From assembly GCF_036711975.1 (NCBI RefSeq), contig NC_091973.1, forward strand, positions 19,282,001 through 19,346,000: DNA of 64,000 bases, written 5' to 3'. The notes beneath the pieces were generated by a model. That model had not been told where the DNA came from and made no database searches. It saw only the letters and a list, made by a program, of their open reading frames with translations. How positions within the stretch are numbered: position 1 is the first letter of the stretch; every line of letters starts with the position of its first letter. Positions 1 through 45,466 of this stretch are shown one piece after another. Origin of the DNA: Onthophagus taurus. Taxonomy: Eukaryota; Arthropoda; Insecta; Coleoptera; Scarabaeidae. The position numbers and the translations under genes were made by a program.

Positions 1-792
1 GATGTTCGGTTAATTACAAGTTGGGATGACATTTGCGGAAAAGGTAGGTCAAAACCCGGAGCTCGCAGTCTAATCGCTAAATTAAATTTTAAAAATATTA
101 AGATTTTTACTGAAACATTTTCGGCAATTCAAATGGAGCGACTTCGTGTTGTTTACAACAAACCTATATACGTTGGTTTTACAGTTTTAGAAATTTCAAA
201 ATTGTTAATGTATGAATTCTATTATAATTTTTTAAAACCTAAATATAATGAAGCAATTCGATTGTGTTATATGGATACGGACAGCTTCACTGTACATATT
301 AACACCGATGACCTATATGAAGATATTAAATTAAATTTAGATAAATTTGACACCTCGAATTACCATCTGGATAATCAATTTAAGATCCCGCTTAAAAATA
401 AAGCCGTATTAGGTCTTATGAAAGATGAGAATTGCGGTAGAATTATGACGGACTTTATAGGGTTACGATCGAAAATGTATGCAAATCGTGTTATTGATGG
501 TCGTGTTACAAAAAAAGCTAAAGGTGTAAAAAAAGCTGTTGTGAAACATAAAATTAAATTTGAAAATTATTTCGATTGTTTAACTTTGAAAAACACTATG
601 TTTGCAAAACAAATTTTATTTAGAAGTTGTAATCACACCGTATACACGGTATTACAAAATAAATTGGTCCTTTCACCGTACGATGCCAAGAGATTTATTA
701 AAGATGATGGTATAGATACGTTAGCTTGGGGTCATAACCGTATTGTTAGTAGTAGTAGTAGTGAGGGTACATTACCAACTCTTAAACCTTAA
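1..792 (+). CDS. Maverick family B DNA polymerase, C-terminal part (truncated by window start)
   Basis: The reading frame is open from base 1 and ends at TAA 790-792, giving 263 residues. It aligns by eye to the C-terminus of the complete polymerase at 40596-44588: motif C YMDTDSFTV lies near residue 91, followed by FIGLRSKMYANR and the basic KKAKGVKKAVVKH stretch conserved in both other copies. Motifs A and B would be upstream of the window. The last 20 residues, with a Ser run, are unique to this copy. The enzyme would replicate the element from a protein primer, as known for Polinton-type PolB. No internal stop is seen, so this end may have been intact recently. Confidence 0.9.
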   Translation, partial: DVRLITSWDDICGKGRSKPGARSLIAKLNFKNIKIFTETFSAIQMERLRVVYNKPIYVGFTVLEISKLLMYEFYYNFLKPKYNEAIRLCYMDTDSFTVHINTDDLYEDIKLNLDKFDTSNYHLDNQFKIPLKNKAVLGLMKDENCGRIMTDFIGLRSKMYANRVIDGRVTKKAKGVKKAVVKHKIKFENYFDCLTLKNTMFAKQILFRSCNHTVYTVLQNKLVLSPYDAKRFIKDDGIDTLAWGHNRIVSSSSSEGTLPTLKP

Positions 793-825: not shown

Positions 826-1554
826 ATGGAGTGTAGTTTGTTTGTAATTCAAAGTGATTTCTATAGAAAGTTGGAACATACCTACTTCTATCATTTAAGA
901 AACTTTATCAAAGAAAATAATCTTGATGGTGTTAATACCATATTGGAAAAAATAATTATCCCAAACCAGATTTTAACATATCGAAATCTACACCTAGCTT
1001 CTGTTGAAATTTTAGAAGTAATTCTTAATGAAAAACTGAATTTTGATCATGTTGTTAAGCAATCATTAGAATCGCTTAATTGTTACGAGCGAAACAACAA
1101 CAATGAATTGAAGGTTAAAGATCTAGAATCACTGACTAGTAACGTAAGTATTAAATTTACTGATGAAATGTATAAAAAATATTTATTAACTAATTTATTC
1201 GCTGATAACGAAGGAATTGTTTCTATTAATAATCTTATATGTAAATACCGTAATTTACATTATTATTGTGATAAATTGATTTGCGATGCATTGTATTGTG
1301 CAGACAATGAATTTGTAAAAAGATGTATACAAGTTTTCAAAGCACTCAACTATGAATTTAACTTTGAGCCACTGTCGCGAATATCACACCAGAATATAAT
1401 GGCATGGTTAATAAACAACATGAGAAATGGAGCTAAAGGGAAACCAGTTGGATGGCAATCCGGTCCTGATTCGGCACATTGGCCCTCTACAAACACACAA
1501 GATTATGTAGATGTTTTAAACCTAATAGAACCATACATAAGATTACATATTTAA
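826..1554 (+). CDS. Unrecognised Maverick cargo gene, 242 aa
   Basis: An uninterrupted reading frame begins at ATG 826, 33 bases after the PolB stop and on the same strand, and ends at 1554. The product is Asn-, Leu- and Ile-rich and probably all-helical. Short helical pairs such as NNLDGVNTILE and ADNEFVKRCIQVFK hint loosely at a degenerate ankyrin-like solenoid, but I do not recognise a family. No signal peptide or membrane segment is evident. The AATAAA overlapping its 3' end faces the poly(A) signal of the convergent small gene at 1588-1782. Because it lies inside the element between PolB and the TIR, it is probably Maverick cargo. The function is unknown. Confidence 0.55.
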   Translation: MECSLFVIQSDFYRKLEHTYFYHLRNFIKENNLDGVNTILEKIIIPNQILTYRNLHLASVEILEVILNEKLNFDHVVKQSLESLNCYERNNNNELKVKDLESLTSNVSIKFTDEMYKKYLLTNLFADNEGIVSINNLICKYRNLHYYCDKLICDALYCADNEFVKRCIQVFKALNYEFNFEPLSRISHQNIMAWLINNMRNGAKGKPVGWQSGPDSAHWPSTNTQDYVDVLNLIEPYIRLHI

Positions 1555-1587
1555 ATAAATAATATATTAAATACCATTTAAAGTGTT

Positions 1588-1782
1588 TTATTTATTTAAT
1601 TTCTCATTTTTTTTACGTAATATTTCATACAATAATTTTTCAGTTTCTTCAATACGTCTCTTAAAACGATACCTATCTGCAGCTGCTTGCAACCATTCCG
1701 ATCCGTTTCTAGCATTTTTGCTATATTCGTCTTCATCAATATAATACACATCTAAATCTTCTTTAAATTTAACACGCTTCAT
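1588..1782 (-). CDS. PPP1R15/GADD34-like protein phosphatase 1 targeting subunit, 64 aa
   Basis: The 64-residue product opens with MKRVKF, a PP1-docking RVxF motif (KRVKF), followed by an acidic spacer containing VYYIDEDE. It ends in a block with W at residue 30, then ADRYRFKRRIEETE at about 35-48. An RVxF motif, a Trp, then (A)DRxRFxRRI is the signature of the PPP1R15 core, which recruits PP1 and actin to dephosphorylate eIF2-alpha. The same core is used by the herpesvirus ICP34.5 and asfarvirus DP71L families. Homology is by eye from the motif pattern. The role (reversing translational shut-off during element or virus activity) is inference. It lies convergently 33 bases from the preceding gene, just inside the right TIR, and is intact. 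ATG 1782 is the only start. Confidence 0.75.
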   Translation of the reverse strand: MKRVKFKEDLDVYYIDEDEYSKNARNGSEWLQAAADRYRFKRRIEETEKLLYEILRKKNEKLNK

Positions 1783-2204
1783 TTCAATGTATATTACTCA
1801 CCTTTAAAATACAAGTTCACTGTAACGTTTGTTGTTTTTTTTTTTTTTAATTCTCCTTTCACTTTCACACACTTAGTCCTAATTGTAGCACGAATCATTA
1901 ATCGTAATTTTTATATATTGACGGTCACCCTACTTTTATTTATATTAAAAAAATTTGCATTCCCTCCACCCTCAGTAGTACCAACATAATTGAGATTCAT
2001 TGCCAACATGTAAAATGAAAATCCCTAAAAGTTACTAAATTTTTGACCGCCATATTGGCATTTCAACCAATCACAGAGCGCAAGATATGGGATCCTGCTC
2101 CAGAACTCTCCTTCTTATACTACTGCCTGCCACGTCCACAATTCGGTCATGGATCGGGTTAACCAAATTCAAGACCGGGTTTAATGAAAATCTTTTTTAT
2201 CAAC

Positions 2205-21460: not shown

Positions 21461-21542
21461 GGACGGATCGCTTCGGTTTACCAACATCCTTTATTATTAT
21501 TATGCACGATACATTGATCTTGTAACCTTCTTGATCGATAAT

Positions 21543-21548
21543 ACCCTT
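21543..21548. repeat. Target-site duplication ACCCTT, left copy
   Basis: Six bases immediately before the AGTAGTG terminus of Maverick 2, identical to 35570-35575. Six-base duplications are characteristic of Maverick/Polinton integration. Confidence 0.9.
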
Positions 21549-21936
21549 AGTAGTGTAAGAATGCCGGTTCTAGACCGGAAGTTGCTCCTGCTGCTCCTGC
21601 GGTGACGTCACGCCTCAATGTATTAGGTATAGGGGGGGATACCAACCAAAGTTTGGGGGGAAAAAAATTAGGTTGGTATTAAAAGTAACTAGAGATCTAG
21701 GGATTTTTATAAAATTAAACAGAAAAATTTAAATATAATGACGCTAGCTATGATTGAGAATTGAACTGTAAATTAGCGTAACTTGAGCTGAAAACTTAAA
21801 TGGTGGTGGTGGTGGGAATATAGGATTAAAAATAAAAAAAATCATTACATTTCAAATTAACAATAAATTATATTAGCATAATATATAAAAAAACCAATAT
21901 ATAATATAATCTGTGATTAACTTGAAATGACTACAT

Positions 21937-22284
21937 TTAAGAAATAGATGCCGATGGAATTTCATCATTTGAACCAATATTCTTCTTCTTCTTCTTTATA
22001 AATTCAATCTTTTGCACAGTACATGTCTTGTTAAGTTCAAGTTCTCCAAGATATACCAAACACATTTCACGTAGTTCAACAATTTCAGCATCGGAAATCA
22101 CTTCAGCAATACGTTTAGGTAGAAACACAATAAATCCAGCTTCCAGTTCAACAATTACCATAGGCCAAGCTCGGCTTGGAATACGTTTAGCTGCTACAAT
22201 TGGATACGGTGTATGTAAATGTAAATCACTCACTTTTTTCTTAGGTAAAAATTCACACTGTCCTAAACGATTTAGATGTTCCAT
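21937..22284 (-). CDS. TIR-encoded small Maverick protein, left copy, 115 aa
   Basis: Intact minus-strand gene inside the left TIR, nearly identical to 34754-35101 in the right TIR (a few substitutions such as A/V, S/N, M/T and R/S). The core PMVIVELEAGFIVFLPKRIAE is beta-rich, followed by an acidic helix and a Lys-rich tail with a KKKKKK run. The paralogue at 23047-23397 and the pseudogene at 36583-36888 share the VELE..F.V.(L/I)P(K/R) core and an 'M(E/S)..(N/S)..G' start. This makes it a conserved Maverick family. The short beta-rich core would suit an OB-like nucleic-acid-binding protein, but that is inference. Confidence 0.7.
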   Translation of the reverse strand: MEHLNRLGQCEFLPKKKVSDLHLHTPYPIVAAKRIPSRAWPMVIVELEAGFIVFLPKRIAEVISDAEIVELREMCLVYLGELELNKTCTVQKIEFIKKKKKNIGSNDEIPSASIS

Positions 22285-22415
22285 CTTTTCAATAAGCGGT
22301 GTATAAACTTCAAGTGAACAGTTTGGAGTGTAAGTTCGGAATGAATAAATTTCGCACCAGGCGGTAGAGATAATGTAACCGCAAAAAAAAATAATGTGGT
22401 TAGACGCAGTAACAT
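22272..22415 (-). CDS. Possible 47-aa secreted peptide ORF upstream of the TIR gene
   Basis: ATG 22415 starts a hydrophobic, signal-peptide-like segment (LTTLFFFAVTLSL) in a short frame that overlaps the start of the 115-aa gene. In the right TIR the same frame is altered by substitutions and small indels, so selection on it is doubtful. It lies just downstream of a likely intron (34524-34590 in the right copy), so it may be only leader sequence. Confidence 0.15.
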   Translation of the reverse strand: MLLRLTTLFFFAVTLSLPPGAKFIHSELTLQTVHLKFIHRLLKRWNI

Positions 22416-22756
22416 CTCTCTAGATAAACAAATTTCCAATAACAACTGTTGATAAAATTAAAAAAAATAAAATTATCAAAAGGAAAATTCGAGAAACAAT
22501 AGATATTACTTACAGTATAAAAAATAAATCGATCCTAAGTGTTCCCAACACATCCCAATGGTTGGTAAACCATGTTCTCTACAATCTCAATATGATTTCG
22601 ATGGGCAACATCCCGTAAAGTTCAAATAGATGAATTCTTTTTTAGTCTTAAATTCACAACCTCGGCTGCTGAATCAAACAGGCTTGATGGCTGTTTATAA
22701 CTCATCTTTTTATAATTTGATGTTTATGTTCTGGTTTAGATTGAACTAATTCTATA

Positions 22757-22990
22757 ATGTCTTTTTCACCACATTTTATATTAATTTTCTATCTGTCCTA
22801 TTTCCCGATGTTGTCATCCGAAGAAATTTATCTGTTTTTTTGTGGTAATTTGTTTTTCGTGGTATTTCGTTTGTTCGTCACTGTATTTTTTGCAGATGTA
22901 TTTCTCAGTTGTGATAATTGCGGTTTTTGTGGTTTTACTTTATTATGCACGTGTTATTTTTTTATTTTATTATCTATTTACTTAGAATAA
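22757..22990 (+). CDS. Hydrophobic Cys/Phe-rich 77-aa open frame
   Basis: An open frame just inside the left TIR that is very hydrophobic, with several Cys (DNCGFCGF). It could be a small membrane protein or only T-rich sequence. No homologue is seen elsewhere in the window. Low certainty. Confidence 0.15.
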   Translation: MSFSPHFILIFYLSYFPMLSSEEIYLFFCGNLFFVVFRLFVTVFFADVFLSCDNCGFCGFTLLCTCYFFILLSIYLE

Positions 22991-23046
22991 CATTTTAATC
23001 AGTTGTGTCCCACAGATTGATTTCATCGGTTCTATATCGGTTAAAA

Positions 23047-23397
23047 ATGGAAAATTTTAATCAAATTGGTGCGTCATTGAATAGTAAACTTGATTTACTT
23101 AACAATATATATGCAAGATCCAGTAAAACCTTGGTTAGAGTCTCTCGTTTGGAGTGTAATAGAGTATATCGTATAATAGGAATTGAGAGACATGTTAATT
23201 CGAGTAGTACATATCCCAAAGTTTTAATTGAATTGGAGGATTTTAATGTCTATATACCTAAATGTTATGAAGATGAGATATTAAAGGATGATACGTTTAC
23301 AATTTTAACATTTTCAATCAATTCTATCGGATTGATCTTTAAAGGTTCTATCTATCTAATGGATATTTTAAATTTTGTAAATTTAAATGAAGTTTAA
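23047..23397 (+). CDS. Paralogue of the TIR-encoded small protein, 116 aa
   Basis: Start ATG 23047 is chosen because MENFNQIG parallels MEHLNRLG of the TIR gene; an in-frame ATG at 23005 exists but is less likely. The core KVLIELEDFNVYIPKCYEDE corresponds to the VELE..F.VFLPKR core of the TIR copies, followed by a KDDTFTIL helix and an end in NFVNLNEV. It lacks the Lys-rich tail. A fragment of a closer relative occurs in direct orientation at 34214-34381, next to the right TIR, where it is split by a probable 57-bp intron. The function is unknown. Confidence 0.65.
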   Translation: MENFNQIGASLNSKLDLLNNIYARSSKTLVRVSRLECNRVYRIIGIERHVNSSSTYPKVLIELEDFNVYIPKCYEDEILKDDTFTILTFSINSIGLIFKGSIYLMDILNFVNLNEV

Positions 23398-23608
23398 TTT
23401 TTTTTATAATGTGAGTATTTCTATTGTTTCTCGAACATTCCTTTCAATAATCTTTATTCTTTATCTTTTTATCTTTTACCAACAGTTGCTATGGAAAGTT
23501 TGTTAACCACAAGCGGATATGCGCGTGAAAAAACAACTATATTTTAAATAAAAAACAATGTATTAAATGAAAAAATTTATTTAAACCAATAAAATGTATA
23601 TTTAATCT

Positions 23609-24130
23609 TTACAATACATTTTCTTTAGAAATCCAACTGTTCTGAGACGAATCAAAACCTAACCATTTCACGTACAGTCTATCCCCTTTCCTCCTTCTTA
23701 TCACTTTTTCAACGAGATAAACGTCAGGTTGTTTAGATAAACTGAGCTCAAATTCATAAAATGCTCCTGAAATGGGTTGACCATTCATGTCCTCCAACAA
23801 ATATGTTACAGGGTTTGTTATCTGAACTTTAGCAATTTTAAACAATTCAGTAGTCCAATTTGGTAGGTATCCTTTATCGAAAACATGTTTATGTCTACTG
23901 ATTCGTACCGTTTCACCAACTTTAGACTTTCATTTACCAGTAATTTTTACGAAATTGTAGACTGTATTGAGAAGCTGATTTTCAATAGATTTAGAATTTA
24001 TTAAATTAGGAGCTAGGAGCTAGCTGTGTAGTCCTATGCTTTAAAGCGTTATAAATTTTAGCTACGTCATTCAAAAGATGTAACCATTTATGATTCCCGC
24101 AAAGACTAAAGTATTTATAGAGCCTTCTGT
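23609..24130 (-). pseudogene. Maverick retrovirus-like integrase with chromodomain, N-truncated
   Basis: On the minus strand, 24130-24030 reads GNHKWLHLLNDVAKIYNALKHRTT, the helix after the catalytic Glu in Maverick integrases ('YN..KHRT'). Stops at about 24010 and 23930 and small frame changes follow. From 23845 an open frame ends in a chromodomain: VYLVEKVIRRRKGDRLYVKWLGF and a final SWISKENVL. The catalytic DDE core is replaced by the repeat block at 24127-24600. The enzyme would have inserted the element and its chromodomain would bind modified histones, but this copy cannot function. Confidence 0.8.
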
Positions 24131-24600
24131 TTTATCTGACCAACCGCTTTTATCGGCACCGATACTTTTTCGAACTGAAAAGCGGTTGGATGGGTAAAAC
24201 AGATTGGTACAGATAAATGTTAACAGGCCGGTTTTAACCGATCTGTTTTATCTGACCAACCGCTTTTATCGGTTGTAACACCGATACTTTTTCAAACTGA
24301 AAAGCGGTTGGATGAGTAAAACAGATTGGTTTCTGATCAAATTATACCGTTGACGGATGGAATTCTTATAGTTACTGGGGGGACGTTAAGGGTTGTCGCA
24401 GGTTGTTATATAAACTGTTTTAACAGATAAATTTTAACAGGCCGGTTTTAGCCGATCTGTTTTATCTGACCAACCGCTTTTATCGGTTGTAACACCGATA
24501 CTTTTTCAAACTGAAAATCGGTTGGATGGGTAAAACAGATTGGTTTCTGATCAAATTATACCGTTGGCGGATGGAATTCTTATAGTTACTGGGGACGCTC
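24127..24600. repeat. Tandem repeat block with internal inverted repeats
   Basis: CTGTTTTATCTGACCAACCG begins units at about 24129, 24245 and 24457. Within each unit AAGCGGTTGG(A)TGGGTAAAACAG forms the inverted partner of the start, so each can fold back. A related single copy occurs inverted near 39680-39735 in Maverick 3. The block replaced the integrase core. Confidence 0.75.
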
Positions 24601-24769
24601 TACGGACTGTGGAGGATATGGTTGGAACAAACCCCATTAAAACAAGGAACCATACATCTGAACCTTTGCTTCAAGAGCAATATATAGCAGTAACAACCCC
24701 TTTAGAAAAAACAAATTCGAGACTGCATGTATACATATAAACCATTGAGTGGTGAGGTGTCGGTAATCA

Positions 24770-24910
24770 TAAACTAACAGGATATCCACATTGATAAAAA
24801 AATGTGGTCAACCACAGAGAAAAACAACTGTGCAGATGCAGGTGCAGGACGTTATAGACAAACAGGATATCCACAATGATAAAATGTGGTTAATCGTGGA
24901 AAAAACAACT
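24770..24910. repeat. Two ~60-bp direct repeats
   Basis: AAACAGGATATCCACAATGA and a diverged partner near 24775 (AACAGGATATCCACATTGAT) are each followed by AAAATGTGGT...AAAACAACT. They lie directly upstream of the gene at 24966, so they could be promoter elements. Confidence 0.55.
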
Positions 24911-24965
24911 ACCATTGACTATATATATATGTCGTCCATGCTATGCACACACATTAGTTACCATC

Positions 24966-25484
24966 ATGAAATTCAGACGTACGGCAGTTGTAGATATTCA
25001 AGGTGTTCAAGTCGATTCAGAATTTGAAGCCAGAGAAGTTACTCTCATAGATTTAGACACATCCCACACGTTACATCTACATCTTCAGTCAAGCAAACCA
25101 TTCCGAGCGCTGAACGAAAAGGACCAGAAGTCTTGTAGATATTTAGAACGACATTATCATCGATTGGGTTTTAACGATGGCTGGATCAGTCAAGGTATGG
25201 GTTTGAAGCTGCTCGATGATACCATTTCAAACTATGATCTCATCTATGTGAAGGGGAACCAGAAGGCACATTTTTTGAAAAATCGTCCATGTCATCCAAA
25301 TCGATGTTGTAGGAATTTAAAGATTATCGACCTATCGCTAGAAAAATGTAATGTAGCCGAAGAGATTAAATTAAATGTTTCGTTAGATGTGTGTTGGTGT
25401 CATAACGGGTTCCCAGCCGTATGTTCGCAAAACAACGCATTAATATTAAAAAATTATGTGAACCAATCCAAATTTATGCTGTAA
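24966..25484 (+). CDS. Conserved-looking Maverick protein with IYVKG motif, 172 aa
   Basis: ATG 24966 is preferred because the coding character starts with MKFRRTAVVDIQG; an in-frame upstream ATG at 24915 adds only a microsatellite-derived leader. The protein begins with two beta strands (AVVDIQGVQV, EVTLIDLD) and has an LIYVKGNQKAHFL segment near residue 100. It ends in a Cys/His-rich part (CHPNRCC, CWCHNGFPAVCSQNN) that could bind a metal. I associate the 'VVDIQG ... YVKG' layout with recurring insect viral or transposon proteins and suspect an RNase H-like fold, but no catalytic set is clear. It lies 97 bases upstream of the metalloproteinase on the same strand. Confidence 0.55.
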   Translation: MKFRRTAVVDIQGVQVDSEFEAREVTLIDLDTSHTLHLHLQSSKPFRALNEKDQKSCRYLERHYHRLGFNDGWISQGMGLKLLDDTISNYDLIYVKGNQKAHFLKNRPCHPNRCCRNLKIIDLSLEKCNVAEEIKLNVSLDVCWCHNGFPAVCSQNNALILKNYVNQSKFML

Positions 25485-25581
25485 ACCAATCAAAATGTAT
25501 TGTACTGTAAAAAATAAATGTATATATTTTGTAAACTATTGAACTTTCATTCATTCAGTCCTTAACGTCCAACAAGTTAAG

Positions 25582-27243
25582 ATGTACCTCCATATTAATT
25601 TTAAATCTATTTACCTGTTGATATATATATTGAAATATATATCTGGAATGTTAAACGACGATACTGATGATATTTATAACCTTCTTGTTAAGTATGGACA
25701 TATTTCGGCGGTGGACTTTGACGAACAACCCAATTTACATTTAGATCGTCAGGAAATATTAGCTGAAGGTCTATCTCACTTTCAAAATTACTATCATCTC
25801 CCTATAACAGGGGAGGCTGATAATGATACGTTAAAGCTACTGTTAAAACCCCGATGTGGTAATTTGGATGTTTATACAAATTTAAACTATAAACATATAA
25901 CGCGTAAGTGGAACTTTACTAAAATTAAATGGGGTTTGTTCCAACCATATCATCTACAGTCCGTAGAGCTATTTAGAAAGGCGTTTAACGTTTGGTCTGA
26001 GCATATAAATTTACAATTTCAAAAAACTTATCGAGATATTAACATTTTAATCGGGTTTCGAAGTGTGAATCATACACTTATCCAAAATCCTAGGATAAAT
26101 TGCCCCGCTAAATTTGACTGTAAAGGAGGTGTGCTAGCTCACGCAGAGTATCCGAGTATACATAAAGATAAAGTTGAAATTCATATAGACATAGACGAGA
26201 ATTGGAATTTCACTAATAATAACGAAAATGAAGTCAATTTATTACCAGTTATTATACATGAAATTGGACACTCTTTAGGGTTAGATCATAATAATCGAAA
26301 TGATTCCGTAATGTATGCATATTATGGTGGAGTTGAAACCTTAAGTCGGCATGACATTGATAATATACAGAGAATCTATGGACGTAAATCACTTGATAAA
26401 CCTAGTATCTCTACAACAACCTCGATTCCCACTACAAATAGAACTCAAACTTCGACTACAACAAGAACAACAACAACAACAGTAAGGCCATCACCATCAA
26501 CAACAACAACAACAACAATAAGGTCAACATCAGTTTCAACTGTCAACGTCTCCCATATATGCGATGTGGATGAAAAGTTCACAGCATTTTTAATTTACGA
26601 TAAAATAGTCTACGTTTTCTTTAAGCAGTGGGTTTGGTTAATTGATCTAAAGACTAAAAAACCGATTCAATCCGAAGCTGTAAACATTTTAGATTGGATA
26701 CACCCCTTGAGAGGGGTTTTAGACAATAGCGACTATGACTATGTAGTGTCAGTAGATTCAAATGGTCTATTCACATTTATTATCAAAAATGAAATATATA
26801 TAATTGAAATTAAGAGTTTAACTGTAAGGTATAAATATAGATTTTCTGAAACGGAATTAGGTTTAACTGATGCAAGTAAAATTAGAGGTGTGGTTACCAG
26901 TAACTACGGTTTGACATACATCTTTTTCGATAAACATTACATCATTCAGGTAGATGAGTACTTTTACAGAAGAAAAAAGATTATAATGTCTGCAGATGAA
27001 TTCTTTCCGGGAATTCCAAACAACTTCAGTGGTGTATATAAAACGTCTGATGGTTTATTAAATTTCTTTGTTGGGGATATAATTATCCGTTACAATGAAT
27101 ATTTAAAAGAGGTTGTGAGTAGTTCGGAAAAGAACCTATCTTTATTGGGTATATCTTGTCCCTATAAGTCTTTAATTGATCAACTCAAATATATATTGTC
27201 TACAATAATTTCATCAAATATCACAATTCCAGCGGAAAATTAA
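25582..27243 (+). CDS. Secreted matrix metalloproteinase carried by Maverick 2, 553 aa
   Basis: Domain order is that of a full MMP. A hydrophobic N-terminus (about residues 8-22) suits a signal peptide. A peptidoglycan-binding-like prodomain ends in the cysteine switch PRCGNLD (about residue 93). The catalytic domain has zinc site HEIGHSLGLDH (about 224-234) and Met-turn SVMYAYY. A Thr-rich linker (about 275-315) leads to a C-terminal hemopexin-like domain (about 323-540) bounded by Cys. Family knowledge: such enzymes cut extracellular-matrix proteins, and MMPs are also known in granuloviruses. All catalytic residues are present, with no introns or stops. Role in host tissue breakdown is inference. 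It sits between the IYVKG gene and PolB. Confidence 0.93.
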   Translation: MYLHINFKSIYLLIYILKYISGMLNDDTDDIYNLLVKYGHISAVDFDEQPNLHLDRQEILAEGLSHFQNYYHLPITGEADNDTLKLLLKPRCGNLDVYTNLNYKHITRKWNFTKIKWGLFQPYHLQSVELFRKAFNVWSEHINLQFQKTYRDINILIGFRSVNHTLIQNPRINCPAKFDCKGGVLAHAEYPSIHKDKVEIHIDIDENWNFTNNNENEVNLLPVIIHEIGHSLGLDHNNRNDSVMYAYYGGVETLSRHDIDNIQRIYGRKSLDKPSISTTTSIPTTNRTQTSTTTRTTTTTVRPSPSTTTTTTIRSTSVSTVNVSHICDVDEKFTAFLIYDKIVYVFFKQWVWLIDLKTKKPIQSEAVNILDWIHPLRGVLDNSDYDYVVSVDSNGLFTFIIKNEIYIIEIKSLTVRYKYRFSETELGLTDASKIRGVVTSNYGLTYIFFDKHYIIQVDEYFYRRKKIIMSADEFFPGIPNNFSGVYKTSDGLLNFFVGDIIIRYNEYLKEVVSSSEKNLSLLGISCPYKSLIDQLKYILSTIISSNITIPAEN

Positions 27244-27594
27244 ATATGTTATGTATGTATCAAATGTGATTTAATCTATGTAACGACAAACTTATTTGGG
27301 TTCTATGTAAATAAAAATTTTTCCACTTGTTTATACATTTGTGGTTTTTTTGTTTTTCGAAGTAGAATTAATTATTATCTCGTCCAACTGTCATCCGTTT
27401 GTGGTTTTTTTGTTTTTTTGAAACTACTATCTGTTTTTCACCGCAATTATCTACAACTTGTTTTATTATTTAAAGACAATAGATATATAAAGGATGCTCT
27501 GGTTACCGAAAAGTTAATAGCATTTGTTCGTGATCTCGTAGACACCGTGTTATTTTTTTTTATTTCCGAAAAGTGAAAAGAAAAAACTCTAAAC

Positions 27595-29830
27595 ATGTTT
27601 ATTTGTGAGTTCTGTCAAGTGTCTTTTACGGTGAAACGTAATCTTGACAGGCATATGCGAGATAAACATGGTAAAACTAATTTCGATTGTACCGTGTGTG
27701 GAGGAACATTTTCAAGACGAGATAACTTGAACGTACATCTGAAACGATCTCATGGGTTATCTATGAAACGTCAAGCACCACCACCACCACCACCATTACC
27801 ATCAACCATCGAACATCGATCAAATCTAGAGATGGAAGTTCCCGGTACGTCTACTAAACATCAATCAAATTTGGAGATGGTAGTACCAACACCATTAACA
27901 TCCCCACCACCACCACCACCACCACTAGGTAATAAACGTCATCGATATTCAGCACGTCTAGAGTCCATGATCGAAAACGATGGAAAGGTATGTCAAGTTT
28001 GTGGCGATTTACTACCATCACTTATCTTGCTTGAATGCCATCTTAGAACTGAGCATGTTGAAATAATCGATGATAATGTTAAAAAATTTAAGTCTTGCTA
28101 TAAAAATAGGGTAGTTTGCTATAGAATTGATGGAGCTCAACCTGATTGTGATATACCGTCATATCTATTGAAATGTTGTGAAACAGTGAATCGACTGATT
28201 GAACAACATCTCAATAGGAATGGTTCGGTAAAAGCTCAGATTGAGTTATTAGCAAATTATATTAAGTCCGGATTTGATGATGATGACGGGAATGAGGAAA
28301 TTATTATGTCGGAGAAAAATTTTAATACAAAATTTAGAATTATCACTGCCGCCACTGTGTTGAATGAGGTTTATGATGAGATGACTCGGGATATTCTAAC
28401 TCAAAGCGAAGAGTTTCAGGAGCGTGGGTCGGGGTGGGCTTTCCACTCTATATCTCACCTGCTCCTGAACATCAATAAATTTGAGCCCATACCCGGGTCA
28501 TCATATATTCGTTTACCTCATGATATCGAAAAGAAAAAGGCATGCATCAATATTAAGAACTATGAAGACGATGCATGTCTAGCGTGGTGTTTGATGGCAG
28601 CTCTTTATCCCGCAAAACTTCATCAAGACCGGACTTCAAGCTACCCTCACTATAGTGAAACACTTAATTTACAAGGTATTAGATTCCCCATTACATTTAA
28701 AGACATTGTTAAAGTGGAAAAGTTAAATAATTTAAGCATTAATGTGTATGAGTTAGTTAGGAATTCGAATAAGTATACGGTGGAAGGACCAATTTATTTT
28801 ACCAAACAAAGACGCGAAATTCATATAAATTTACTCTATTTATATGAAACCGGCGGGAAAAGTCATTTTGTATTAATTAAGAACCTATCCAGGCTTATAT
28901 CACGTCAGTTTTCACGTCATGAGCATTCTATACACCTTTGTGATGGATGTTTAACCCGATTTCCATCTGCTGAAAAATTAATTACACATCAGAATCACGA
29001 TTGTAATCATATAAAAACAATTGTTCCCACGATAAATTTAAAATCAAAACCTAATTATTTTGGCTTACACACTCCCGAAAATATTTTATCATTTAATAAC
29101 TATAAATTCACACAGATGGTCCCGTTCGTTATATATGCAGACTTCGAATCGATTCTACAACCCATCGATTTTTGTGAGCCCAATTCATCTAAATCTTTTA
29201 CCGAAAAAGTTGAGATGCATCAACCCTACAGTTTCGCGTATTATATCGTTTCCACGATTGATAGTAGTTTTAATAAATTTGAAACGTATACAGGACTTGA
29301 TGCATCTCACGTTTTTATCACAAAATTAATCGATGATGTTAAATCTATTTATAATAAATACTTGAAAACCGTAAAACCAATGATACTTTTAACAACCGAT
29401 GAGCAACGCAATTTCGATTCAGCTGAAAATTGTTATATTTGTCAAAATCCTTTCACATCTGACCAGCTTAAGGTACGTGATCATTGTCATATTGGTGGTA
29501 AATACCGGGGACCCGCCCATGCAAATTGCAATCTAAATTTCAAACTTCCAAATTCTATTCCAATATTCTTTCATAATTTTAGCGGTTATGATTGCCATTT
29601 ATTTATTAAAGAAATTGCTGATGCTGATGAATATGGACTTGATGTATTGCCGAACAATAAAGAAAAATATATCAGTTTCAGTAAAAGAGTGTTTGTCGAT
29701 AAATTAATCAATGAAGATAAAACTGTTGAAAATATTTTTTTAAAATTAAGATTTGTTGATTCGTTTAGATTTATGGCATCTTCATTAGACTCATTAGCCG
29801 GTAACCTCGAAATAAATGACTTTATCAATA
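27595..29830 (+). pseudogene. Maverick 2 zinc-finger PolB, 5' part, interrupted by Tigger
   Basis: ATG 27595 opens with two C2H2 fingers (CEFCQVSF...H, CTVCGGTF...H), a Pro-rich linker and a third finger (CQVCGDLL...H). The exonuclease-type region follows: YADFESIL, an endonuclease VII-like treble clef (CYICQNPF ... RDHCHIGGKYRGPAHANCN), and HNFSGYDCH. Coding is native up to the TA at 29829-29830, where the transposon begins; the open frame runs into it and stops at 29919. The copy at 40596-44588 continues past this point without a break. The product here would be a polymerase fragment without motifs A-C. Confidence 0.9.
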
Positions 29831-32308
29831 CAGTAAGGCCTCAACATTCGCGAGGGTTAGGTTCTGAAAATACGTCGCGAATGTTGAATCCGCGAATGTT
29901 GAAGCACTCGATCTTATAAAAGAGAAACTGCTTCTGTGCCATTTTAAAAAGTAAAACGAAGACGAAATAAATCAAATGGAGAGATGTTTTATTTAAAAAT
30001 AGTAACAAAATTAAAAATTTGAATAAGTATGATTTTTAAAATTAATAAAATTAGTTATGTTAAATAAAACACACACAATATTTCAAAATAAAACGACTAA
30101 ATTTTCTGCAACAATATTTGTATTCAAATATAATATGTACAGTAAAATAACCATTTAAAGTTAAAAAAATAAACTCGGACAAATAAAAATAAACTCAAAA
30201 ATAAATATCAAAGAAATAAACTAAGAAAAAAAAACAAATAAAAATTAACTTAACCTTTCATCAACATGTTCAGGCACTGATTTAGAACACGATGGTTTGA
30301 AAAATGAATGTATGGTAGGTTGTACAGCTTTATTTTGCATATCCTTTTGAAGCTCTTTGTAAGAAGCAAGAAGAGTATTTAACCCATTTTTAAATTTTAT
30401 GCTACGTTCCATTACGGGATCCATTTCTACGATCTTTTCAGCAAGATGATTTGCTTCTTGTATAAAAGAATTAAGTTCTTTCAACGATAATTTATTACAA
30501 GGAGAAATAACCTCATCTTCATCCGATCCTGATTCACTCTCTATCAGGAGTGCTTCTAAATCCGCATTGGATAACTCTTCGTTTTCTTCATTGACAAGAG
30601 ATTCTATATCAGCTGCTACCACCTTTTGAAAATCGTCTCCTGGTAGCAACCGTGCAGAGAGCACAGCTTTGTCTATTGCCTCATCAACTTCAGAAGATTT
30701 TTCGGTGTCTTTTTTTAACAATTTTTTCCATGAATTACTGACAGTCGATATTTTAATGTCATTTAAAGCACATTTTATATTAATAATAGCATGTTCAATA
30801 TTGTATAGTTTCCACACGTCTTTTATTGAAAGGGAACTGTCGTTTTCTAATTTCTCGTGTACAAATCCAAACGCGTGCCTGATGTAATGACTTTTGAAAG
30901 CCTTTATAACACCTTGGTCTAAAGGTTGTAACAAGGATGTTGTATTTGGAGGAAGAAATACTACTTCCACACATGGATGACCAAACTTGAGAACATCAAC
31001 TGGATGAGATGTTGCGTTATCCAATATCAATAAAACACGGAATGATAAATTTTTAGATTTTAGATAACGTTCCACTTCTTTAACGAAACACTCTTTATAC
31101 CATTCAACAAATATATGAGAAGTCATCCAAGCTTTTGCATTAGCTCGCCAATACACAGGAAGAGCATCTTTGTCCTTGTTCTTTAAAGCACGTGGATTAG
31201 CTGCCCGGTATACCAACATTGGCTTTGTAATAAAGTCTCCACTTGAATTTGCACACAATAAAAGTGTGACTCTATCCTTAGCTGATTTAAATCCAGCAGC
31301 AGTCTTTTCATTTTTTGAAATGTATGTTCGTGTTGGCATCTGTTTCCAATAAAGTCCGGTTTCATCCGCATTAAAGATTTGTTCAGGGCAATAACCTTTC
31401 TCTTCTATTAATTTTCTTATTTCATCAGGAAATTTTGCAGCTTGTTGATGATCAGCTGAAGCTGATTCTCCACATAACTTAACGTTATGAAGATTAAATC
31501 GAGATTTAAATCTTTCGAACCATCCTCTGCTCGCTTTAAATTTAGAGTCATCTTCAATATAATTTATATCACCCGAAAAATGACAATAAAGATCCTTGGC
31601 TTTATCCATTAATCTAGCTCTGGTTAATGGTATATTTCTGCGGCCGTTATCTTCAATCCAAATATAAAGAGACTTCTCCATTTTCTCAATATTCATATCA
31701 CGAATTTGTGATGTTACTTTTAATGATGAACAGATGCCACTTTTTACGCTATTCCTGATTTCATTTTCTTTTTTCTTTATAGATCTTATCGTTGATTCAT
31801 TTACACTAAAGATACGGCCCACTTCGGTAGCTTTTTTCCCTTCTCGCAGCATATCAAGAACTTGAATCTTTTTTTCTAATGTCATAACTGACTTTGCGCG
31901 TTTGGCAATTAAGTTTATTTCGTTCGCTGGTCGTTTTGTAGCCATGTTGAATAGAATAATAGTTTCTAAAAGTTTATAAGATTAATCGGATATAAGAAAT
32001 TATAGAGTAAAAAAAAATAAAGAAATACTAACCTGAGTCAAGTAAATATCACAGAAATAAACACATAACCTAAACACTAAAATCGATCGAAATTAAGGGA
32101 ATCCCCGTAAACCGTAACAAAACAAATTGTCAAATGTGCGTGATGGGAAGCTGGTTGCTTGTACAGCAGGCGCACCGTTTGAATAAAGAAAAAAGTGCGT
32201 ACATATTCGCGAATAATCGAATCGCGAATGTTGAAAAAGGTAGCAAAGTTTAAAACGCGAATACACGAAACCGCGAATGCTGAAGTCGTGAATGTCGGGG
32301 CCCTACTG
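29831..32308 (-). mobile_element. Tigger/pogo-type DNA transposon inserted in PolB (2478 bp)
   Basis: The ends CAGTAAGGCCTCAACATTCG and, inverted, CAGTAGGGCCCCGACATTC are Tigger-like terminal repeats flanked by TA at 29829-29830 and 32309-32310. Further inverted-repeat copies of the ATTCGCG unit lie inside both ends (29850-29905 and 32205-32290). The element carries one intact transposase gene on the minus strand. Removal at the TA would restore the PolB frame, which marks it as younger than Maverick 2. Confidence 0.93.
30245..31945 (-). CDS. Tigger/pogo transposase (CENP-B-like, DDE_1), 566 aa
   Basis: The N-terminal psq-type helix-turn-helix (LEKKIQVLDMLREGKKATEV, about 27-46) and a CENP-B-type second helix-turn-helix (about 80-150) bind the ends. 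The catalytic core has Asp in FNADETGLYWKQMP (about 198), Asp in LLILDNATSHP (about 307), and a third acid in SLLQPLDQGVIKAF (about 343). The C-terminal part is acidic and helical. There are no stops or frameshifts over 566 codons, the usual Tigger length, and both element ends are present, so it could be active or recently active. The direction is opposite to PolB. Confidence 0.93.
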   Translation of the reverse strand: MATKRPANEINLIAKRAKSVMTLEKKIQVLDMLREGKKATEVGRIFSVNESTIRSIKKKENEIRNSVKSGICSSLKVTSQIRDMNIEKMEKSLYIWIEDNGRRNIPLTRARLMDKAKDLYCHFSGDINYIEDDSKFKASRGWFERFKSRFNLHNVKLCGESASADHQQAAKFPDEIRKLIEEKGYCPEQIFNADETGLYWKQMPTRTYISKNEKTAAGFKSAKDRVTLLLCANSSGDFITKPMLVYRAANPRALKNKDKDALPVYWRANAKAWMTSHIFVEWYKECFVKEVERYLKSKNLSFRVLLILDNATSHPVDVLKFGHPCVEVVFLPPNTTSLLQPLDQGVIKAFKSHYIRHAFGFVHEKLENDSSLSIKDVWKLYNIEHAIINIKCALNDIKISTVSNSWKKLLKKDTEKSSEVDEAIDKAVLSARLLPGDDFQKVVAADIESLVNEENEELSNADLEALLIESESGSDEDEVISPCNKLSLKELNSFIQEANHLAEKIVEMDPVMERSIKFKNGLNTLLASYKELQKDMQNKAVQPTIHSFFKPSCSKSVPEHVDERLS

Positions 32309-34109
32309 TATACGTAAATTCTTTTCACACCCGGAACATTTTAAATTGTTAACGAAAAAGGGTGTATTTCCATACAATTATATAGCCTCTTTCGACAAAC
32401 TAAATGATACATCACTACCATCTAAAAGCATGTTTTACAACAAATTAAATTTAGAAGACATAAGCGATGAGCAATATTCGCACGCTCAATGTGTGTGGAA
32501 AGAATTTAATTGTCAAAATTTGAAACAATATTCCGACTTGTATTTAAAGACAGATGTTCTTTTATTGACTGATGTATTTGAAAAATTCAGGCAAGTTTGT
32601 TTTAAAACTTACGATTTAGATCCCGCGCATTATTATACGGCACCGGGGCTATCTTGGGATGCCATGTTAAAATTCACCAAAATTAAATTAGAATTATTGA
32701 CGGATATAGATCAAGTTCATTTTATTAAGAAAGGTATCCGTGGAGGTATTTCTCAATGCTCCCTACGGTACGCCAAAGCTAATAATAAATATATGGATAA
32801 TTATAACCCCAATTTACCATCATCGCATTTAATGTATTGGGACGCGAATAATTTGTATGGATGGGCGATGTCGCAATATTTACCGGTTTCCAGTTTCAAG
32901 TGGTTAGATGATACCCAAACTCTAAATTTTAATTTTAATAATATATCAGATACTTCAGATTACGGTTACATTTTAGATGTAGATATCGAATACCCCGAGT
33001 ATTTGCATGATACGCATAATGATTTACCTTTTTTATGTGAAAACATTTTACCACCTAACGGTAGATGTGAAAGCGATAAAAGATTGATTCCAAATTTATT
33101 TAATAAAACAAATTATGTTGTGCATTATAGAAATTTAAAGCAGGCCGTTGCTAACGGTCTTAAAGTTTCTAAAATTAATAGAGTTTTATCGTTCAGACAG
33201 TCTATCTGGTTGAAATCTTACATCGATAAGAATACAGCATTACGCCAATCCGCTAATAATTCTTTTGAAAAAGATTTTTTCAAGTTAATGAATAATGCGG
33301 TTTTTGGTAAAACCATGGAAAATGTAGATAAGCGAGTCGATGTAAGATTAGTGACCAGTTGGGATGATGTTCATACTAGCGAAATCTCCGGTCGTCCTCG
33401 TTTAGGAGCTCGGAGTTTAATTGCGAAATTAAATTTTAAAAGCATAAGCATATTCACAGAAACGTTTTCGGCAATTCAAATGGATCGTCTCCATGTCGTT
33501 TACGATAAACCTCTATATGTTGGTTTTACGGTTTTAGAATTGTCTAAATTGTTAATGTATAATTTTTATTATGATTTCTTAAAACCAAAGTACGGTGAAT
33601 CTATTCGCTTATGTTACATGGATACCGATAGCTTCACCGTACTAATTGATTCCGATGATGTTTATAGAGACGTGAAATTGAATTTAGATAAATTTGATAC
33701 ATCGAACTACAGTCCTGATAATCAGTTTGACATACCGTTACATAATAAAGCTGTTTTGGGTAAAATGAAAGACGAGAATTGCGGAAACATAATGGTTGAA
33801 TTTATCGGTTTGAGGTCTAAAGTGTATGCGAATAGGGTCGCTGATGGTCGGGTTACAAAGAAATCTAAAGGTGTTAAGAAAGCTATTGTTAAACATAACA
33901 TATCTTTTCAAAATTATTTAGATTGTTTAAATTCAAAATCGGTTTTATTTAAAAAACAAACGTTATTTAGAAGTTTCAATCATAACATATTTACAGCATT
34001 ACAAAATAAATTGGTTCTATCACCAAATGACTCCAAGCGATATATTTGTAATAATGGAATTAATACATTCGCTTGGGGTCATTATAGTATTAATGACGAT
34101 AGTACATAG
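32309..34109 (+). pseudogene. Maverick 2 PolB, 3' part with polymerase motifs A-C
   Basis: Native coding resumes at the TA after the transposon. It contains YLKTDVLLL (exonuclease motif III-like), motif A YWDANNLYGWAMSQ, motif B KLMNNAVFGKTMEN and motif C CYMDTDSFTV, then the basic KKSKGVKKAIVKH segment, ending at 34109. An ATG at 32292 within the transposon end opens the frame, so a separately expressed C-terminal product is conceivable but unsupported. Identity to the 40596-44588 copy is high by eye, so the split appears recent. Confidence 0.9.
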
Positions 34110-34213
34110 TTTAATTTTAAGTTAATTTATTCGTATTTATTGTAATTTATTGAAAAGTTCTCGATGGTTAATTGTTTATTCGCTTTACTTTCTGTTTACA
34201 TCACACTTTAGCT

Positions 34214-34381
34214 ATGGTTCAAATCTCATTGGTAAGTATGTTAATTTACACCATCGAGATTTTTTTTATTGTTTTAATTCAATTGCAGGATTTTAAAGTC
34301 TATATACCTAAACGTTATGAAAATGAGGCTTTAAAGGACGATACGTTTGCAATTTTAAAATCTTCAATCAATTCTTTGTGA
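34214..34381 (+). pseudogene. Fragment of the small VELE/PKR family gene with a probable 57-bp intron
   Basis: MVQISL at 34214 is followed by GTAAGTATG at 34232 and a T-rich tract ending TTGCAG at 34288. The next exon, DFKVYIPKRYENEALKDD, matches the 23047 gene at the position where that copy has no interruption. It stops at 34381, inside the TIR border. Either an intron was gained here or a truncated exon was captured. Confidence 0.5.
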
Positions 34382-35569
34382 ATTTAAGACTAAAAAAAGA
34401 ATTCATGTATTTGAGCTTTACGGGATGTTGCCCATCGAAATCATATTGAGATTGTGGAGAACATGGTTTACCAACCATTGGGATGTGTTGGGAACACTTA
34501 GGATCGATTTATTTTTTATACTGTAAGTAATATCTATTGTTTCTCGAATTTTCCTTTTGATAATTTTATTTTTTTTAATTTTATCAACAGTTGTTATTGG
34601 AAATTTGTTTATCTAGAGAGATGTTATTGCGTCTAACCACATTATTTTTTTTTGCGGTTTTGAATTATCTCTACCGCCTGATGGGAAATTTAATCATTCC
34701 GAATTTACACTCCAACCTGTTCACTTGAAGTTTATACACCGCTTATTGAAAAGATGGAACATCTAAATCGTTTAGGACAGTGTGAATTTTTACCTAAGAA
34801 AAAAGTGAGTGATTTACATTTACATACACCGTATCCAATTGTAGCCGTCAAACGTATTCCAAATCGAGCTTGGCCCACGGTAATTGTTGAACTGGAAGCT
34901 GGATTTATTGTGTTTCTACCTAAACGTATTGCTGAAGTGATTTCCGATGCTGAAATTGTTGAACTAAGTGAAATGTGTTTGGTATATCTTGGAGAACTTG
35001 AACTGAACAAGACATGTACTGTGCAAAAAATTGAATTTATAAAGAAGAAGAAGAAGAATATTGGTTCAAATGATGAAATTCCATCGGCATCTATTTCGTA
35101 AATGTAGTCATTTCAAGTTAATCACAGATTATATTATATATTGGTTTTTTTTATATATTATGCTAATATAATTTATTGTTAATTTGAAATGTAATGATTT
35201 TTTTTATTTTTAATCCTATATTCCCACCACCACCACCATTTAAGTTTTCAGCTCAAGTTACGCTAATTTACAGTTCAATTCTCAATCATAGCTAGCGTCA
35301 TTATATTTAAATTTTTCTGTTTAATTTTATAAAAAATTCCTAAATCTAGTACTTACACCACTCAATCATAGGTGGCGCCATTGTATTTAAATTTTTCTAT
35401 TTAATTTTCTAAAAATCCCTAGATCTCTAGTTACTTTTAATAGCAACCTAATTTTTTTTCCCCCAAACTTTGGTTGGTATCCCCCCTATACCTAATACAT
35501 TGAGGCGTGACGTCACCGCAGGAGCAGCAGGAGCAACTTCCGGTCTAGAACCGGCATTCTTACACTACT
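34376..35569. repeat. Maverick 2 right terminal inverted repeat (1194 bp)
   Basis: Inverted partner of 21549-22659. A CTCAATCATAG(G/C)TGGCGCCATT block near 35348-35430 is an extra copy that makes this arm longer. A probable intron (GTAAGTAATATC at 34524 to ATCAACAG at 34590) lies upstream of the small gene. Confidence 0.9.
34754..35101 (+). CDS. TIR-encoded small Maverick protein, right copy, 115 aa
   Basis: Same gene as 21937-22284, in the opposite repeat arm, with the reading frame equally intact. The few differences from the left copy are mostly conservative or isolated. A likely intron lies 165 bases upstream. Because it is duplicated by the TIRs, both copies would be transcribed inward from the element ends. 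Function unknown; see the left copy for the domain description. Confidence 0.7.
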   Translation: MEHLNRLGQCEFLPKKKVSDLHLHTPYPIVAVKRIPNRAWPTVIVELEAGFIVFLPKRIAEVISDAEIVELSEMCLVYLGELELNKTCTVQKIEFIKKKKKNIGSNDEIPSASIS

Positions 35570-35575
35570 ACCCTT
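35570..35575. repeat. Target-site duplication ACCCTT, right copy
   Basis: Identical to 21543-21548. The uninterrupted relative near 46990-47005 (minus strand) has ATCCTT at the same point. Confidence 0.9.
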
Positions 35576-35993
35576 AGCGAGCCTGATAAGTAAAAACGTT
35601 GAGAAGCAAGTCCCCCCCCGCTTCTAACTTCACCACAACGGAAGGTGACGACCATGCGCAGTTCGTAAGACGTTTTTCCATGAACAATAAATAGGGTAAA
35701 AGGGGTAAATCCAACTCAACTTCGAATAAATGTTTTCTTTGGTTTAAACTCACAAAGACTGAAAAAAGAGACGACTATGAGACATTGCGCGCGGTTTACG
35801 TTTGACGGGTAAATCCAACTTAACTTCGAATAAATTTTTTCTTTGGTTTAAACTCACAGAGACGTCTACGAGACATTGCGCGCGGTTTACGTTTGACACG
35901 TTCGGTTTCTAAAGTAAAACTGACTGATTCCTCGCCGGCGGAAGTGTCAAGTGACATAGCGGCTGCAATAATGCTGACCAATCGAATAATTGA
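35576..35993. other. Third copy of the Maverick 3 inner TIR sequence
   Basis: Reading on from 21548 across Maverick 2, this segment matches the inner TIR of Maverick 3 at 37020-37345 and, inverted, 46600-47060. Examples are CAATGTCTC-type, GCGCGCGGTTTACGTTTGAC and GCGGCTGCAATAATG blocks. It contains a ~100-bp tandem duplication (about 35695-35890). It therefore represents the target into which Maverick 2 inserted and next to which the Maverick 3 left end lies. Confidence 0.75.
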
Positions 35994-36129: not shown

Positions 36130-36430
36130 AAAAAAGGGTTGGTTTACCTGATGAGAGATAGATGGCGCAGCTTAAAATTTACCTGATAATTGATAGATGG
36201 CGCAGCTTAAAATTTACCTGATGAACGATAGATGGTGCTGTCATCTTTTTAAGTTGGACCGGAAATTACTAACCATCGGGTAATTTAAATTTACCTGATG
36301 GGTGATAGGTGGCGCTGTTATATTTTTAAAATTTAAATTCACCTGATGGGCGATAGATGGCTCTGTTATATTTTTAAAATTTAAATTTACCTGATGGGAG
36401 GGATAGATGGCGTGCGAAAATTTAAAATCA
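36130..36430. repeat. Minisatellite in the TIR, about six units
   Basis: ACCTGATGGGCGATAGATGG-type units, each followed by CGCTGTTATATTTTTAAAAT or a variant, repeat about six times at 35-75-bp spacing. The right TIR (47430-47560) holds about three inverted units, so copy number has changed since the arms were identical. Confidence 0.8.
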
Positions 36431-36582
36431 TGGAAAAAAATTTGGTTGGTAGAAAAATATAAACAAAAATTATATGTTAATACATTTATCATTTAATTTT
36501 TAAAACAAATTTTATGATACAATTATGGTTTATGAAATTTATATACATACAGATGAACATCAGGGTCATCGGTAGGAAATTT

Positions 36583-36888
36583 TTACGTTTCAGGTTTCTT
36601 GATGAAATCCAATAAATATACAGGGTGAGTTTTACCGATGTCTTTTGCACCCTTATAAATTATGCACATTTTCCTGAGTTCGATGATTTCCTCGTCAGCA
36701 ATATCTTCAGCGATGCGTCTTGGTAAAGAAATCATGAATCCAGCCTCCAACTCAAGTACCACGGACGGTCAAGAACACGTTTTAAGACGTTTCGCGCACT
36801 TAATTGGATATGGAGTGTCCGGTTGAAGCTCAGAAATTGACTCTTTCGGTAGGAAATTACACTGACCCAATTGACTTAGACGAGACAT
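36583..36888 (-). pseudogene. Decayed TIR-encoded small protein of Maverick 3
   Basis: The frame from ATG 36888 reads MSRLSQLGQCNFLPKE, aligned with the start of the Maverick 2 TIR gene, then a TGA near 36771. It continues VVLELEAGFMISLPRRIAED and DEEIIELRKM and ends in LLDFIKKPE at TAA 36583. One premature stop disables an otherwise full 101-residue frame. The right TIR keeps only its C-terminal end (DIGKPKPAHIIEFVKK, 47060-47117). It shows the small gene family is shared by two Maverick lineages. Confidence 0.7.
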
Positions 36889-37668
36889 GGTTCGTTCCTT
36901 GAACAACTGTTTCGTAGATTAATAATAATAAAACGTAACTTGTTAGCTTACAAATAGCTGCCAAACTGAATAAATTATTAAGAACATGTAATTATATGCT
37001 TGAAAAAAGATTAACGACGAGACATGGTGGCTCGTAAGACGTTTTTTTCCATGAACAATAGATAGGGTAAATTCATCCAACTCAACTTCGAATAAATTTT
37101 TTCTTTAGTTTAAACTCACAAAGATCGTAAAAAAAACACAGAGACATTGCGCGCGGTTTACGTTTGACGCGTTCGGTTTCTAAAGTTAAACTGATTATGA
37201 ATTACGCGATACAATGCTTTCCTCGTCGGGCGGAAGTGGTGTAAAATTACAACGCGGCGCATCGCCAAGGTGCAATACACCTCGCCGACGGAAGTGTCAA
37301 ATTACCTAGCGGCTGCAATAATGCCGAGCAATGGAATAATTGACCTAAATGAAATGCTATTGTATAATTAATATTAAGGAAGTAAAAAAATAATACAAAT
37401 TATAAAATTGTTTTAATGCATTTTCAGTAACAAAAATGATGTACGTGGAAAAAAATACATTTAAATAAAAGACGGAAAAGGTTTAAATAATACAATTTAA
37501 TTTTCTCAATTAACCCAATTTAAATATATTGACACATTTTAAAATAAAAATTACAAATAGATAAAACTCATTTACTCATTTAATTGAATTTACACGGATT
37601 GAATTGATGGCTGTAAGGTGAAATAGAAACAACAAAATGATTTGTTTAAGAAATACATTTATTATTAT

Positions 37669-44588: not shown

Positions 44589-44732
44589 TTTAGAGTTTGT
44601 AAATTTCGGAAATATCAAAACACTTGGTATAAAAGTTTTAGATAAAATAGGTGAAACTACTACGATGTTATCACAACCGCGAACGAATGGTATTTGCGTT
44701 CCAGTACGTGATGAGCATACTCTAATACTCAA

Positions 44733-45303
44733 ATTACATAAATTAGTATTGCTCGATCAAGGTCAAGTAAAGTCGAAGATTTCGGTATGTGACAGTATAC
44801 TTCAGATGCACTGTCCGACCGTTACCGACTAATGCCGAAACACTCCGATCGGAGTAATCGACAGTTTAACCTGTTAATATTCAAATTACATAAATTATTA
44901 TTGTTACATAAAACGCAAATTAAGCGGTTTTTATTAAATCACTCAGGTTAAGTAAAGTTCAATGCACTGTGGCAATCAGCGCGCAGCTGCAATAACGCTG
45001 ACTAATAGACTTATTGGTACAATAGGTTATTTGCGAACGTCCCCGCACCCCGGAGTAAAGGACCCCCCCCCCCCCCGATACTTTGTTCATGATCCGTTTG
45101 AAGATTTTTTAGTACGATTGCATCCTTTAAAAATACTTTCCATTGCTTTCGAAATATCTTTACCTGATATAGTATTGCTTTTGAACTTTAAGTTCAATTA
45201 AGTTGCACTAATGAAAGGATTATATAATCGGTTTATACAATAAAAAATTTATTTGTTTTATTATGATTTTTATTTTAACTAATTCTATTTTTTAAAAAAT
45301 TTT
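44733..45303. other. Spacer downstream of the PolB promoter side, no intact gene
   Basis: It contains the diverged inverted relative of 39588-39800 at about 45091-45240, and a CCGATCGGAGTAATCG block (44846) that recurs at 39366. A C15 homopolymer lies near 45062-45076. Confidence 0.4.

Positions 45304-45428: not shown

Positions 45429-45466
<38 letters not shown>

Follow-up and report, generated by a model that had tools for sequence, protein, structure and literature searches.

A short PPP1R15/DP71L-type gene at the terminal inverted repeat of a Maverick element in the beetle Onthophagus taurus

Results

Organization of the locus

The window analysed here is a stretch of 64,000 nucleotides from Onthophagus taurus (contig NC_091973.1, positions 19,282,001 to 19,346,000), whose first positions contain the right end of a Maverick element with the following features:

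1..792, plus strand: C-terminal 263 codons of PolB, whose ORF begins in L010 (3845-7000)
826..1554, plus strand: 242-aa ORF belonging to this Maverick and convergent with the 64-aa gene; no Pfam or PHROG family
1554, plus strand: AATAAA for the convergent ORF (motif scan, consensus match only)
1587..1596, minus strand: AATAAA signals overlapping the end of the 64-aa gene (motif scan, consensus match only)
1588..1782, minus strand: PPP1R15/DP71L-like core of 64 aa with an ATG start (ORF list, Pfam, PDB and leave-out profile)
1712..2124: right terminal inverted repeat (TIR), 413 bp, ending in ACTACT on the plus strand and matching the reverse complement of L009 1079-1491
1909..1917, minus strand: TATA-like sequence within the TIR, around 135 nt 5' of the ATG (motif scan, consensus match only)
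2125..2130: 6-bp target-site duplication, gcctgc, identical to L009 1073-1078 at the left end

The first-pass annotation had reported an ORF with a KRVKF docking motif, a downstream Trp and an ADRYRFKRRI block, and we found these at residues 2-6, 30 and 35-44 of the 64-aa product. It had also placed the gene between PolB and the TIR, which is not simply so: the 242-aa ORF separates it from PolB, and the TIR, whose inner boundary (about 1712) was read by eye from the sequence, overlaps its first 23 codons. The promoter of the core gene probably lies in the TIR. The 242-aa ORF adjoins the core gene in another copy as well (L012). The PolB piece at 1..792 had no Pfam match on its own, and the preceding part of the ORF (L010 5303-7000) matched DNA_pol_B_2 with an E value of 4.6e-25.

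The carrier element spans 15,247 bp, from C8:19268878 (L009 1079) to position 2124 of the window. Its 413-bp TIRs show AGTAGT at either end when read inward, and gcctgc is present on both flanks; a target duplication of 6 bp is a trait of Mavericks. The element encodes an integrase (rve, 1.9e-13), a Pox_A32-like ATPase (7.9e-9), a double jelly-roll capsid protein (DJR, 1.1e-109) and PolB, together with a candidate protease with a weak Peptidase_C48 match (E 0.0028; 18.0 bits versus a cut-off of 20.7) and a PLA2-like ORF (L009 5008-5355; Phospholip_A2_4, 4e-15). The Maverick setting proposed in the first-pass annotation is therefore borne out by the TIRs, the target duplication, the integrase, the ATPase, the capsid protein and PolB. 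Because the TIR takes in codons 1-23, the left end of the element contains a truncated start of the core gene, and the TIR may have been lengthened by the copying of one end onto the other. A diverged copy of another stretch of TIR sequence (83% over 66 bp) occurs just inside the left TIR boundary, at L009 1496-1558, and suggests TIR turnover.

Long inverted repeats also mark two more Maverick regions of the window, at around 21500-35600, where there is an integrase match, and 36400-47450:

27577-29916 with 32292-34106: PolB ORFs of the first further region
21937-22284 (minus strand) and 34754-35098 (plus strand): small ORF starting MEHLNRLGQ, present in both inverted-repeat arms of the first further region
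40599-44756, minus strand: PolB ORF of the second further region

We found no PPP1R15 core in these two regions, so the core gene is not universal in Mavericks. The PolB of the first further region seems interrupted by a transposase-like ORF (30248-31981). The MEHLNRLGQ ORF is a further example of a gene within a Maverick TIR, and a similar ORF occurs in L067.

Homology to PPP1R15 and DP71L

The best Pfam family for the 64-aa protein was PP1c_bdg (PF10488), with an E value of 2.7e-5 and 24.4 bits versus a curated cut-off of 26.1 (1.7 bits short); three further families followed at E 0.017 to 0.034. The core of a sister lineage, C, reached 28.1 bits, which is above the PF10488 cut-off. Sequence searches of the PDB with the 64-aa protein returned only four entries at E<=1, namely DP71L (1.2e-5, in an alignment spanning 59 residues), two constructs of PPP1R15B (8.3e-4 and 9.1e-4) and PPP1R15A (0.18). 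The profile comparison suggested by the first-pass annotation thus yields PP1c_bdg, PPP1R15 and DP71L, with the lone Pfam score just below its cut-off. Some compositional noise is evident from weak unrelated matches, e.g. Hen1 at E 0.014-0.017; searches of PHROGs and NCBIfam produced weak noise only, and a single-sequence protein search with the 64-aa protein retrieved no relative.

A profile from the two lineages designated W, which includes the window gene, and B matched DP71L (8.1e-9) and PPP1R15B (2.7e-4) in the PDB, and a profile made from lineages C, D, E and F alone matched PPP1R15B (4.4e-10) and DP71L (9.1e-8); the W/B and C-F profiles matched each other with a probability of 96.8. A leave-out profile of 18 relatives, none from this genome and none a Maverick member, scored the 64-aa frame at 66.1 bits. 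The runner-up among the 1331 frames of the window scored 7.2, and the highest-scoring shuffle 13.2 (5000 shuffles were generated, and the output listed 4975 rows, the 64-aa protein itself included). This control is partly circular, because its 18 relatives came from profiles that include the window protein, and the Pfam and PDB matches are free of that circularity. In all, the assignment of the 64-aa product as a PPP1R15/DP71L-type protein in a Maverick is well supported by these sequence comparisons.

At E<=1, two successive profile searches for relatives elsewhere retrieved 11 and 120 proteins, most of them short; a frog PPP1R15 and the 'Protein DP71L' of Erinnyis ello granulovirus were among them. 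A relaxed VxF-Trp-D-RF pattern fits 77 of these 120 relatives, and every row of a 13-row alignment has the D, R, R, F, R, R and I of DRxRFxRRI. In a tree of 120 rows and 74 columns, W and B were nearest each other and no well supported branch linked them to host or virus sequences. A scan of viral contigs with five queries, which needs near-exact words of 8 residues, showed no relative.

We did not recognize a host PPP1R15 among the 84 PF10488 matches (24 opened) and the 150 of 197 frog-PPP1R15 candidates that were scored; its absence is not claimed, because the gene could be masked by introns or by the crowd of Maverick copies. Two host-gene candidates, C8:20676187 and C5:2191477, were rejected as Maverick pieces.

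Functional residues and predicted structure

The PPP1R15A residues that touch actin are F592, R595 and R612, of which R612 is described as less important; those that touch eIF2alpha are R587, R591 and R594, and D588 lies close enough to reach Lys79 of eIF2alpha (PMC8500838). Five of these seven published contact residues are kept in the 64-aa protein at PPP1R15A spacing. Trp30 corresponds to W582 in PPP1R15A numbering, and D588, R591, F592, R594 and R595 are present at identical spacing in both W and B, as are the Val and Phe of the VxF motif (V4 and F6, at W-26 and W-24), the former 26 residues before the Trp. The spacing of the VxF, the Trp and these five residues is therefore shared with PPP1R15A/GADD34 and PPP1R15B/CReP. 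In contrast to these, the 64-aa protein is without the long N-terminal membrane part, the R587 position is Ala (A35) and the R612 position is, in ungapped register, Glu (E60), although a gapped alignment puts R56 in a nearly invariant Arg column; neither R587 nor R612 was treated as family-defining. DP71L, in turn, needs V16, F18, L57 and L61 (PMC5346070), which in the PDB alignment are identical to V4, F6, L51 and L55 of the 64-aa protein; lineage B often has Val at position 51.

The W and A5 lineages keep R591, F592 and R595, while in lineages C to F the R594 position is occupied by K, N or T. Lineage D has KVRI at the docking motif, i.e. without the Phe of VxF. These changes make the function of C to F less sure.

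AlphaFold2 modelled the single chain with a mean pLDDT of 80.6 and a pTM of 0.42, predicting an extended N-terminal part, modelled with less confidence, then a short helix at residues 19-26 and a confident helix at 28-63. This model is compatible with a segment for docking that precedes a helix for actin and substrate, without being decisive: PPP1R15A has two helices with a sharp turn, whereas the model has a single long helix after the short one. A Foldseek search of the PDB with the model gave no match under E 5.

Copies of the W and B lineages

The 64-aa protein had 68 matches in the genome. We assigned 12 to full W copies (95-100% identity), 41 to lineage B (39-52% identity) and four to fragments of truncated W copies; the other 11 are short (25-26 residues) and agree with remnants of the left end. 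The frame was intact in 45 of the 51 W and B loci that were fetched (W, 12 of 15; B, 33 of 36). AGTAGT occurs 341-347 bp 5' of the ATG in 11 of the 12 W copies, with ten different flanks (L006 and L007 have one in common), and was not found within 400 bp upstream in the twelfth. These near-identical W copies point to recent activity.

Over 63 codons, W and B differ at 24 first, 14 second and 33 third positions, and the NG86 method gave a dN of around 0.41 and a dS of 1.1 to 2.1, near saturation. Bootstrap medians of omega were 0.29 and 0.36, with values >=1 in 0 of 300 replicates in each of two comparisons; their lower bounds are meaningless, because any replicate whose dS was saturated received a value of 0, and the estimate covers the whole history since the W/B split. 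Within these limits, the divergence of W and B suggests purifying selection. Distinct synonymous and nonsynonymous changes within families numbered, respectively, 4 and 6 in W and 16 and 24 in B, to be compared with neutral fractions of around 0.22 and 0.72. There were no stops within the W or B family sets, for which intact frames were chosen beforehand.

In lineage B the entire gene sits inside the TIR, so that elements L011 and L014 have it at both ends. The arms of their TIRs have, respectively, 99% identity over 219 nt and 100% over 623 nt, and in L014 integrase, ATPase and capsid ORFs lie between the arms. No PolB was recognized in the ORF lists of these two elements, which are about 9 kb long and contain capsid genes and an integrase, as if they were borrowing a polymerase.

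PPP1R15-type cores in further Maverick lineages

A search of the genome with PF10488 produced 84 matches at E<=1, of which 12 were W copies and 24 were opened, and a search with frog PPP1R15 produced 150 matches, with 150 of 197 candidates scored. Eighteen further places were opened from both lists (12 and 6), and all were Maverick loci or pieces, as deduced from their neighbours or sequence. PPP1R15-type cores thus occur in six or more Maverick lineages of this genome, bearing out the suggestion of the first-pass annotation that the gene be sought in other Mavericks. The core sits in one of three places: in or at the TIR, next to a PLA2 gene, or in fusion with another ORF. In lineage C (L061 and L068; truncated in L062), a 222-aa ORF follows the capsid gene and a 271-aa ORF, and its first 60 residues are the core, which continues in frame into a DxQGF-type ORF; L067 is a decayed copy with the C arrangement, a stop and an altered RR. 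In lineage D (L063, L064 and L069-L072), the core forms a gene of 74 aa that lies 5' of the PLA2 gene, and the cores of lineages E (L065) and F (L066 and L079-L083) are placed likewise wherever the PLA2 gene falls within the stretch. Lineage D has 58 equal-score matches among the 84 PF10488 matches; such equal scores only suggest copy numbers per lineage, because only a minority of the matches in the genome lists were opened.

Two other ORFs recur among these elements. PLA2-like ORFs occur in several Maverick lineages, those at L061 573-1490 and L064 3757-4659 being recognized by sequence only. The DxQGF-type ORF, of around 165 aa, is common to W, B and C (L010 1939-2457, L011 8104-8613 and L061 4968-5456; 27-32% in blastp), and its W and B members have no Pfam family.

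Discussion

We consider it quite likely that this virus-like Maverick carries a gene for a free-standing, minimal PPP1R15 core of DP71L type, which would keep translation on through the dephosphorylation of eIF2alpha. The extended N-terminal half would dock host PP1 through the VxF motif, the C-terminal helix would bind G-actin and the N-terminal domain of eIF2alpha, and the resulting complex would strip the phosphate from eIF2alpha, so that translation could continue while one of the host's eIF2alpha kinases reacts to the element. Action on eIF2alpha is an inference that we regard as likely.

Among the alternatives, a descendant of PPP1R15 that now steers PP1 to some other target, such as one of the element's own capsid or replication proteins, or that merely sequesters PP1, would fit the loss of R587 and R612 in W (in ungapped register), the variation of lineages C to F at the eIF2alpha-facing R594 while the W and A5 lineages keep R591, F592 and R595, and the fusion of the lineage C core to another Maverick ORF. 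We nevertheless regard it as unlikely, because W and B keep both the eIF2alpha-facing residues D588, R591 and R594 and the actin-facing pair F592 and R595, which a mere anchor for PP1 would not need. Still less probable is that the copies are relics, once functional and now just carried along by amplification of the element: six of the 51 fetched loci are truncated or broken and L067 has a stop, but the remaining 45 are intact, the W-B omega was below 1 in all 600 bootstraps of the two comparisons, even if this reflects the whole history since the split, and the near-identical W copies point to recent activity. Finally, a chance resemblance, for which the shortness of the ORF, its lone Pfam score below the cut-off and the weak unrelated matches such as Hen1 might speak, is scarcely credible and was rejected, given 66.1 bits versus 13.2 for the best shuffle and given that Maverick-only profiles put PPP1R15 and DP71L first in the PDB.

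Short stand-alone PPP1R15 proteins are already known from DP71L and a granulovirus, the latter a precedent absent from the first-pass annotation. Like the 64-aa gene, the short form of DP71L of African swine fever virus and the granulovirus PPP1R15 are free-standing cores of around 70 aa in a DNA virus; here, by contrast, the carrier is a Maverick with an integrase and a target duplication, and the start of the gene lies within the TIR. We take coGV to be a Choristoneura granulovirus. Viruses have co-opted PPP1R15, and the insect-virus protein coGV-gp036 has been aligned (PMC4394352). Published accounts count ICP34.5 of herpes simplex virus among the viral proteins that share this conserved segment (PMC8500838, PMC5346070).

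The carrier shows the traits of Maverick/Polinton (adintovirus-like) elements, i.e. an integrase, an A32-like ATPase, a double jelly-roll capsid, PolB, TIRs and terminal AGT repeats, alongside a candidate C48-like protease that scores below its cut-off. An AGT end motif and accessory regions have been described for Mavericks (PMC8097293); the element differs in having a PPP1R15 core among its accessory genes. The text of that source does not contain 'eIF2', and a limited literature search, with subscription papers mostly outside it, found no description of a PPP1R15/DP71L-type gene in a Maverick, Polinton or adintovirus. A Maverick as the carrier of a PPP1R15-type gene is thus likely, though not proven, to be new.

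Whether PPP1R15-type targeting of the eIF2alpha phosphatase is a recurrent, selected function of Mavericks we regard as evenly balanced, considering its occurrence in at least six lineages and three positions, in both TIRs of one element and in an in-frame fusion. A kept recruiter of the eIF2alpha phosphatase points to a productive phase of Mavericks that is opposed by the host, because it would be useful mainly where the host shuts translation down; according to the abstract of PMC8097293, Maverick particles had not been observed. The 64-residue protein is directly testable, and the lineages offer natural variants, with K, N or T at R594 or without R587, of a structurally understood holophosphatase. 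The proposed activity would extend a mechanism of herpesviruses, an asfarvirus and a granulovirus to integrating virus-like elements. If the function is indeed recurrent, translational shut-off by the host would be something that Mavericks face routinely, just as in real infections, and these elements could have served as a reservoir for such genes moving between hosts and larger DNA viruses.
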